Part shown: positions 24,224-28,659 of the stretch, piece by piece
Layout of the letters: every line of letters starts with the position of its first letter
How positions within the stretch are numbered: the first letter of the stretch is position 1
Assembly: GCA_002255955.1 (NCBI GenBank)
Contig: NKIM01000018.1
Span: 52,535-116,534 of the forward strand
DNA from: Burkholderiales bacterium PBB2
GTDB lineage: Bacteria > Pseudomonadota > Gammaproteobacteria > Burkholderiales > Burkholderiaceae_C
Direction: 5' to 3'
Length of the DNA: 64,000 bases
The notes under the pieces: generated by a model
Told to the model about the DNA's origin: nothing
The model's input: the letters and a program-made list of their open reading frames with translations, nothing else
Database searches by the model: none
Made by a program: the position numbers and the translations under genes

Positions 24224-24264
24224 ACCGGCGACTCCGAGCGAAAAAGTCGAGACCACAAGTAGAA

Positions 24265-24398
24265 ACCCCTTCCAGGCCTGAACCGGGAAGGGGTGTGGAG
24301 GCTGACGCCACCGATGGGGCTCTCGGGGGATGTGCCCGAGGGCTCCTGGCGCGCAATGATTGCGCCAGAGGTTGTGCCTGAGACAGGCCTCCCAACAC
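24265..24398. other. Highly structured intergenic element (candidate structured RNA), strand uncertain
   Basis: Several nested or adjacent inverted repeats: ACCCCTTCC/GGAAGGGGT; closing GTGT+GGAGGC/GCCTCC+ACAC; GGGGCTCTCGGG/CCCGAGGGCTCC plus CGCCA/TGGCG; GCGCAA/TTGCGC; GCCTG/CAGGC. Confidence 0.5.
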
Positions 24399-24419
24399 TA
24401 GGTGAAGCCAGGCTTGCTT

Positions 24420-26006
24420 TCAAGCCATCAACCCCCCGGGCAAACCCGGGGCTGAGGATGCAAACAGGGTGTCAAACAGCTGATCGGCGCGCGCCTGCAC
24501 CTCGGGGGTCATGACGATGCCTCGGCCCCACTCACGGCTGGTCTCACCCGGCCATTTGTTGGTGGCATCCAGCCCCATCTTGCCGCCCAGTCCGCTGACC
24601 GGCGAGGCGAAGTCGAGGTAGTCGATCGGCGTGCTGTCCACCAGGGTGGTGTCACGCACTGGGTCCATGCGCGTGGTGATGGCCCAGACCACTTCCTTCC
24701 AGTCGCGGATGTTGATGTCCTCGTCCACCACGACGATGAACTTGGTGTACATGAACTGGCGCAGGAAGCTCCAGAGCCCGAACATCAGCCGTTTGGCATG
24801 GCCGGGATAGGCTTTGCGAATCGAGATCACCGCCATGCGGTAGCTGCAGCCTTCGGGCGGCAGATAGAAATCGACGATCTCGGTGAACTGCTTTTGCAGA
24901 ATCGGCACGAACACTTCGTTCAGCGCCACGCCCAGAATGGCCGGCTCATCGGGCGGCTTGCCGGTGTAGGTCGAGTGGTAGATTGGCTGCTCGCGCCTTG
25001 TGAGGCGGCTGACTTCAAACACCGGGAACCAATCCTGCTCGTTGTAGTAACCGGTGTGGTCGCCGTAAGGCCCCTCCAGCGCGTGCAGGTAGCCGCCCTT
25101 CTCTTTCAGCGGCACGCCGTCTTCGCTGATACCGGCGAAACCCGCAGCCGCCGGCGGGATGTGCCCCTCCAGCACGATCTCGGCGCTGGCCGGCACTTGA
25201 AGCATGCGGCCGGCTTCGCCCACGCCGCTGTCCACCAGCTCGGTGCGCGAGCCCCGCAGCAGGCCGGCGAACTGATATTCCGACAGACTGTCTGGCACCG
25301 GCGTGACGGCGCCCAGGATGGTGGCGGGATCGGCGCCCAACGCCACCGCAATCGGAAACGGCTGCCCCGGATTGGCCAGTGCAAACTCGCGGAAATCCAA
25401 GGCACCGCCGCGATGGGCGAGCCAGCGCATGATGAGCTGGCGCCGTCCGATCAGTTGCTGGCGGTAGATCCCTAAGTTCTGGCGCGCTCGCGGCTTGAGC
25501 ACCGACTGCGGCCCCCGGGTGATGACCAAGCCCCAAGTAATCAGGGGGCCGATATCGCCCGGCCAGCAAGTCTGGATCGGGATGTCCTTGAGGTTGATGT
25601 CGGCGCCCTGCAGCACCACCTCCTGGCACGCCGCGCGGCGCACCGTTTGAGGTTTCATGTCCCAGACCGATTTCATCATCTGCAGCAGACGGCCGACGTC
25701 CTTGACGCCTTTGGGCGGTTCGGGCTCTTTCAGATTGGCCAACACATGGCCAACCTGGCGCAGGTCATCCAGGCTGTCGGCCCCCATGCCCAGCGCCACA
25801 CGACGCGGCGTGCCGAATAAATTGCTGAGCACCGGCATGGTGTGACCAGTGGGCTGCTCGAACAAAAGTGCTGGTCCCTCGGCGCGCAAAACCCGGTCGC
25901 TGAGGGCCGTCATCTCCAAAATGGGGGAGACCGGCTGACTCACCCGCTTGAGCTCGCCCATGCCCTCCAAACCGCCAATAAAGTCGCGCAGGTCACGATA
26001 CTTCAT
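24420..26006 (-). CDS. ubiD: 4-hydroxy-3-polyprenylbenzoate decarboxylase
   Basis: 528 aa; [63 protein letters not shown]. Confidence 0.95.
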
Positions 26007-27125: not shown

Positions 27126-27197
27126 GCGCAGCCAGCCCTGTGCTTTGACGAAGCCAGCTTCCTCGGGAGCCCCTGGCGCTGCAGCTACACTGCAGCC

Positions 27198-27332
27198 TTC
27201 GCGCGACTGGCGATCAAGGAGGGCCAGGTGACCGAGCGTCACCGGCAGCCTGAGGTGGTGGACCACCGGGAAGCGCGAACGTCGATGGGCTGAACCCCAC
27301 GCCGACTTCAGCCGTTCGCCTGGGCAGCTTGG
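27198..27332 (+). ncRNA. ZTP/ZMP riboswitch (pfl motif) upstream of glyA
   Basis: gcgcGACTGGCGatcaaggagg...ggtggACCACCGGGaAGCGcgaac...GCCGttCGCCTGGGCAgc match the conserved blocks of the pfl motif; located ~80 nt upstream of glyA, a known target. Confidence 0.92.
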
Positions 27333-27408: not shown

Positions 27409-28659
27409 ATGTTTGACCGTAGCACTTCCACTCTCGCCCAAGTCGATCCGGATCTCTGGGCTGCCGTCCAGAACGAAAACCGTCGCCAGGAAGATCACAT
27501 CGAGCTGATCGCCTCGGAAAACTACACCTCGCCGGCCGTCATGCAGGCGCAGGGCAGCCAGCTGACCAACAAGTACGCCGAGGGCTATCCCGGCAAGCGC
27601 TACTACGGTGGCTGCGAGTACGTGGACGTGGTCGAACAGCTCGCCATCGACCGCCTGAAGGAACTCTTTGGCGCGAACTACGCCAATGTGCAGCCCAACT
27701 CTGGCTCGCAAGCCAACCAGGGCGTGTTCTTCGCCCTGCTGCAGCCGGGCGACACCATCATGGGCATGAGTCTGGCCGAAGGCGGTCACCTGACCCACGG
27801 CATGGCCCTGAACATGAGCGGCAAATGGTTCAACGTCATCTCCTACGGCCTGAACGCCAAGGAAGAGATCGATTACGACGCCATGGAAGCTCTCGCCCGG
27901 GAGAAGAAGCCCAAGCTGATCATCGCGGGCGCTTCTGCTTACAGCCTGCGCATCGATTTCGAGCGTTTCGGCAAGATCGCCAAAGAAATCGGCGCCTACT
28001 TCATGGTGGACATGGCCCACTACGCGGGCCTGATCGCCGCGGGCGTCTACCCCAACCCGGTACCGCACGCCGATGTGGTGACATCCACCACCCACAAGAG
28101 CCTGCGCGGCCCGCGTGGCGGCATCATCCTGTGCAATGACGAAGCGATCGCCAAGAAGATCAACTCGGCCATCTTCCCCGGCATCCAGGGCGGCCCCCTG
28201 ATGCACGTGATCGCCGGCAAGGCCGTGGCCTTCAAGGAAGCGCTGACGCCCGAGTTCAAGGCCTACCAGGCTCAGGTGGTCAAGAACGCCAAGGTCCTGG
28301 CCGACACCTTGATCGAGCGCGGCCTGCGCATCGTCTCGGGCGGCACCGAGAGCCACGTCATGCTGGTGGACCTGCGCCCCAAAAACCTGACCGGCAAGGA
28401 AGCCGAGGCCATCCTGGGCGCCGCCCACATGACCTGCAATAAGAACGGCATCCCCAACGATCCGCAAAAACCCATGGTCACCAGCGGCATCCGCCTGGGC
28501 ACGCCGGCCATGACCACGCGTGGATTCAAGGAAGATCAGGTGCGCGCCACCGCTCACCTGATCGCCGATGTGCTGGACAAGCCGCACGACGAAGCCAACC
28601 TCGCCGCCGTGCGCGAGAAGGTGGCGGCGCTGACGCGCGACTTCCCGGTCTACCGCTGA
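27409..28659 (+). CDS. glyA: Serine hydroxymethyltransferase
   Basis: [61 protein letters not shown]. Confidence 0.98.

Follow-up and report, generated by a model that had tools for sequence, protein, structure and literature searches.

What is encoded in the interval between a ydcF-like gene and ubiD of Burkholderiales bacterium PBB2? In the 64,000-nucleotide stretch of DNA analysed here (the window), the first-pass annotation had marked this interval as a candidate structured RNA with more elaborate pairing than a terminator would need, and the comparative structure data strongly supported this description. Judged from the sequence comparisons, the interval very probably harbours a minus-strand RNA gene, predicted to run from about 24388 to 24257 and to specify an uncatalogued sRNA. 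The complete proposal, that is, an uncatalogued sRNA gene whose invariant core also binds a protein, we consider evenly balanced. The features of the locus are the following:

24420–26006, minus strand: ubiD, the constant upstream neighbour, outside the RNA (found by tblastn in the homologous loci)
24418–24423, minus strand: predicted −35 box TTGAAA, overlapping the end of the ubiD stop codon (ubiD ends at 24420)
24395–24400, minus strand: predicted −10 box TAGTGT, 17 bp from the −35 box, conserved as TAnnnT
24257–24388, minus strand: predicted RNA of ~132 nt (covariance model match at 24254–24395 with 144 bits; promoter and terminator positions)
24376–24388, minus strand: P1, hairpin GCCUG-UCU-CAGGC at the RNA 5′-end (conserved GCCU...AGGC, little covariation)
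24347–24367, minus strand: P2, hairpin UGGCGCAA-UCA-UUGCG-CG-CCA (pair 37–41 compensated on 8 branches)
24316–24346, minus strand: P3, hairpin GGAGCCCUCGGG...CCCGAGAGCCCC (pair 58–74 compensated on 8 branches, 61–71 on 4)
24297–24312, minus strand: P4, hairpin GGUGGC-GUCA-GCC(U)CC (pair 88–99 compensated on 13 branches)
24265–24294, minus strand: P5, predicted intrinsic terminator stem (supported by covariation)
24257–24264, minus strand: U-rich tail TTCTACTT following P5 (TT at columns 140–141 in 87 of 89 sequences)

The folding of the element is stronger than that of its dinucleotide shuffles on both strands (z = −3.3 for plus and −2.9 for minus). In an alignment of 17 sequences, P1–P5 were paired in 91% of the cells, as opposed to 33–51% when the partners were slid. 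Covariation was examined in a tree-aware test that takes relatedness into account, using parsimony on the tree of the neighbouring UbiD proteins with 89 sequences and an RNA alignment made without reference to structure. Compensatory double changes occurred on 73 branches at the structural pairs compared with 2–21 for slid pairs, and at least four compensatory events were found in 8 of the 37 structural pairs versus 7 of 9833 background pairs, the best-compensated pairs being 88–99 in P4 followed by 37–41 in P2 and 58–74 in P3. G.U exceeded A.C in 19 pairs versus 4, which favours the minus strand and correspondingly disfavours an RNA read from the plus strand. Four hairpins had already been recognized from the single sequence, namely ACCCCTTCC/GGAAGGGGT at 24265–24294, a 12-bp helix at 24316–24346, GCGCAA-TGA-TTGCGC with a CCA/TGG extension at 24347–24367 and GCCTG/CAGGC at 24376–24388, and all of them are present where they were placed; P4, the promoter and the fixed strand are additions of the present analysis. 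The proposed outer closing stem, GTGT+GGAGGC with GCCTCC+ACAC, proved not to be conserved: its GTGT/ACAC part coincides partly with the conserved −10 box, four of the six GGAGGC/GCCTCC pairs form in just 31–44% of the homologues (the background for arbitrary column pairs is 39%), and the remaining two involve columns whose invariance has other causes. A coding role was rejected on the grounds that the lengths vary freely between 135 and 150 nt regardless of frame, that the RNA of 41 of 100 homologues contains no ATG and that the substitutions are compensatory in nature.

P2 can pair in two registers, either as UGGCGC/GCGCCA or as CGCAA/UUGCG with a CG bulge. The second register is the one backed by covariation, but the bulged C is near-invariant; it is possible that P2 is a two-state hairpin.

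About 121 of the 401 genomes sampled from the family of PBB2 each carry a single homologue, located immediately behind ubiD. Two covariance models were used, R1 built from 17 and R2 from 100 sequences. With R2 and an E-value limit of 0.001, matches were obtained in 131 of the 401 family genomes: about 121 scored more than 47 bits, the remaining ten only 24–37 bits. In a DNA search of 60 relatives, 18 genomes (its own included) carried the element, distributed over its own genus and three others of the family; 17 of these 18 loci had a detected ubiD next to the element, the exception (L017) being a contig end. Scanning named genomes for the pattern yielded 30 loci, including ones from Roseateles, Paucibacter, Pelomonas, Piscinibacter, Methylibium, Rubrivivax and Albitalea; Roseateles is a member of the Sphaerotilaceae according to the NCBI taxonomy. 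Outside the family nothing exceeded about 26 bits, either in 399 order-level genomes searched with R1 or in 274 class-level genomes searched with R2 (each set contained a few family members), and no ubiD adjoined the weak order-level matches. Rescanning 36 low- or no-match family genomes with laxer filters gave 37 bits at best, and in ten family members with a more diverged UbiD (64–69% identity) the ubiD locus contained no credible match. The weak matches of 20–30 bits, outside the family and mostly also inside it, were not beside ubiD and were treated as chance; one 26-bit match (L163) has ubiD as its neighbour and may represent a diverged copy of the RNA. From this distribution, the RNA seems to have arisen within one part of the family.

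Upstream of 99 copies, amid otherwise divergent sequence, only two blocks are strongly conserved: CTTGAA, kept in most homologues (T 94%, T 85%, G 92%), and, 17 bases on, TAnnnT (T 93% and A 90% upstream of the aligned 5′-end), whose final T is the first aligned base and was T in 80 of 89 sequences. At the other end, P5 is followed by TTTCTnnTTT, which is a Rho-independent terminator by form. A single-sequence consensus scanner run over the window called neither a promoter nor a terminator, thus the claim for both relies on conservation, by which nearly all copies are predicted to have their own sigma-70-type promoter (CTTGAA-N17-TAnnnT) and intrinsic terminator. Given the position of the −10 box, transcription is expected to start near 24388, at P1; this puts the probable 5′-end ~7 nt past the −10 box, and the 3′-end would lie within the U-rich tail.

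The near-invariant letters cluster in P2, comprising its loop UC (88–89 of 89 sequences), its stem and the bulged C46 (85 of 89), and in the base of P3 (AGGAGCCC/GAGCCCC), where a C.A mismatch is kept in 84 of 89 sequences, while the unpaired linker between P1 and P2 drifts. Since pairing within a hairpin does not by itself require the stem letters to be invariant, sequence-specific recognition by a protein is favoured. We propose that the sigma-70-type promoter at the 3′-end of ubiD would drive synthesis of a ~130-nt RNA on the ubiD strand, which would fold as five successive hairpins, end at the intrinsic terminator and act as a stable standalone regulator. P2 with its UCN loop and bulged C, together with the mismatched base of P3, would most likely be the protein-binding site, and the RNA would deliver or sequester the bound protein. 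P1 and P5 would protect the RNA ends, and P5 may double as the terminator of ubiD. No other convincing copy of the P2–P3 module was found in the own genome or in related ones, hence there is no direct sign of a protein site shared with mRNAs. In its most specific form, the proposal is that the UCN hairpin with its bulged C and the C.A-mismatched helix are bound by an unrecognised, putative RNA-binding protein serving as a regulator in Sphaerotilaceae-type bacteria, the two forming a lineage-specific regulatory RNP; this version is tentative and, in our estimate, rather unlikely.

Among the other explanations, a trans-acting base-pairing sRNA, dependent on Hfq or ProQ/FinO, survives best. Its P1–P2 linker and/or P3 loop would cover ribosome-binding sites of mRNAs, and the predicted promoter, intrinsic terminator and U-rich tail would all suit such a molecule, as would the composition of the linker, which is C-rich and G-poor (G 8%, C 44%, A 30%) compared with 29% G overall. 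The motif CAACCUC recurs in the linker of 9 of the 89 sequences, mostly of the same genus. However, the linker is unconserved across the family and it is the paired core that is conserved, and the U tail is interrupted (TTTCTACTT), which is weak for a classical Hfq sRNA. We regard base pairing as a possible but not the probable mode of action; the combination of an invariant core and a drifting linker appears to fit a protein-binding regulatory RNA somewhat better.

A reading of the element as merely the 3′-UTR of ubiD with its terminator, possibly released from the ubiD mRNA by processing, draws support from the position of the element within ~140 nt of the ubiD stop codon in nearly all genomes and from the lack of an obvious terminator between this stop codon and the element in the window. 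Yet a conserved promoter separates ubiD from the RNA, and a five-hairpin structure with an invariant core speaks against a simple trailer. One strong copy (L154; genome G094, C39:115148–115296), the only one without ubiD nearby (none in its 6 kb), has a serine/threonine-kinase-like protein encoded in its vicinity; promoter, structure and terminator are all retained in this copy, a point in favour of an independent gene. A mere 3′-UTR is accordingly improbable.

Still less credible is a cis-acting element, for instance a riboswitch, of a neighbouring gene. The complex conserved fold would be in keeping with it, but the RNA ends in a terminator, and ydcF, the one gene catalogued on its far side, is not a constant downstream gene on the same strand: in the window it is the next gene but convergent to the RNA, and it went undetected in many homologous loci (6 of the 18 from the DNA search: L008–L011, L014 and L018).

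The weakest reading is that of 6S RNA (RF00013, ssrS) or a second 6S paralogue binding RNA polymerase, which we dismiss almost entirely: the element resembles 6S RNA in being a standalone structured bacterial RNA of moderate length, and the first-pass annotation, which had picked the right strand in its 6S remark, gained that impression, but the 6S model does not match the element even at E up to 10, it shows neither a closing stem that is conserved nor a long rod interrupted by a central bubble, and one 6S RNA is encoded elsewhere in the same genome. The latter is the only 6S match of the genome (L002; genome G000, C17:95512–95692; 47.3 bits against a cut-off of 46.4) and sits between zapA-like and EVE-domain-like genes, named from inspection of their translations.

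The Rfam check suggested at the outset, with RF00013 included, gave no matching RNA family at the element: no family of Rfam 15 reached its gathering score for the RNA in the window and nine homologous loci. In the same window a ZMP/ZTP riboswitch (RF01750) was detected at 27193–27332 on the plus strand with 54.4 bits, ahead of glyA (27409–28659); being present in three of the nine homologous loci as well, it tends to belong to the gene neighbourhood of the RNA. No description of the RNA was found in the open-licence literature. A candidate motif of the same order, Burkholderiales-1, is listed without an Rfam accession (Weinberg 2010, PMC2864571), and the RNA may be this previously listed, unnamed candidate. 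Like the element, S17, one of the Betaproteobacteria toxic sRNAs (bdhR1, RF02278), is a conserved betaproteobacterial sRNA with an intrinsic terminator, and it also has its seat beside a ubiquinone gene, coq7 (PMC11722255). The 27-nt invariant segment of S17 includes single-stranded target-pairing sites (PMC11722255), whereas the invariant part of the element is paired; neither RF02278 nor any other Rfam model matches the element. With RNAs of the CsrB/RsmZ type the element shares the proposed mode, an RNA titrating a protein, but instead of repeated loop GGA motifs, none of which was seen, it has a single core module.

The analysis adds a well-supported, uncatalogued RNA gene family, which is single-copy and syntenic in ~120 sampled genomes and for which a covariance model, predicted ends and a defined invariant core are now available. 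Its carriers are environmental bacteria, a group for which no sRNA work was found in the literature searched. If the core binds a protein, the family would represent a regulatory RNP beyond the familiar set of 6S, CsrB and SRP.
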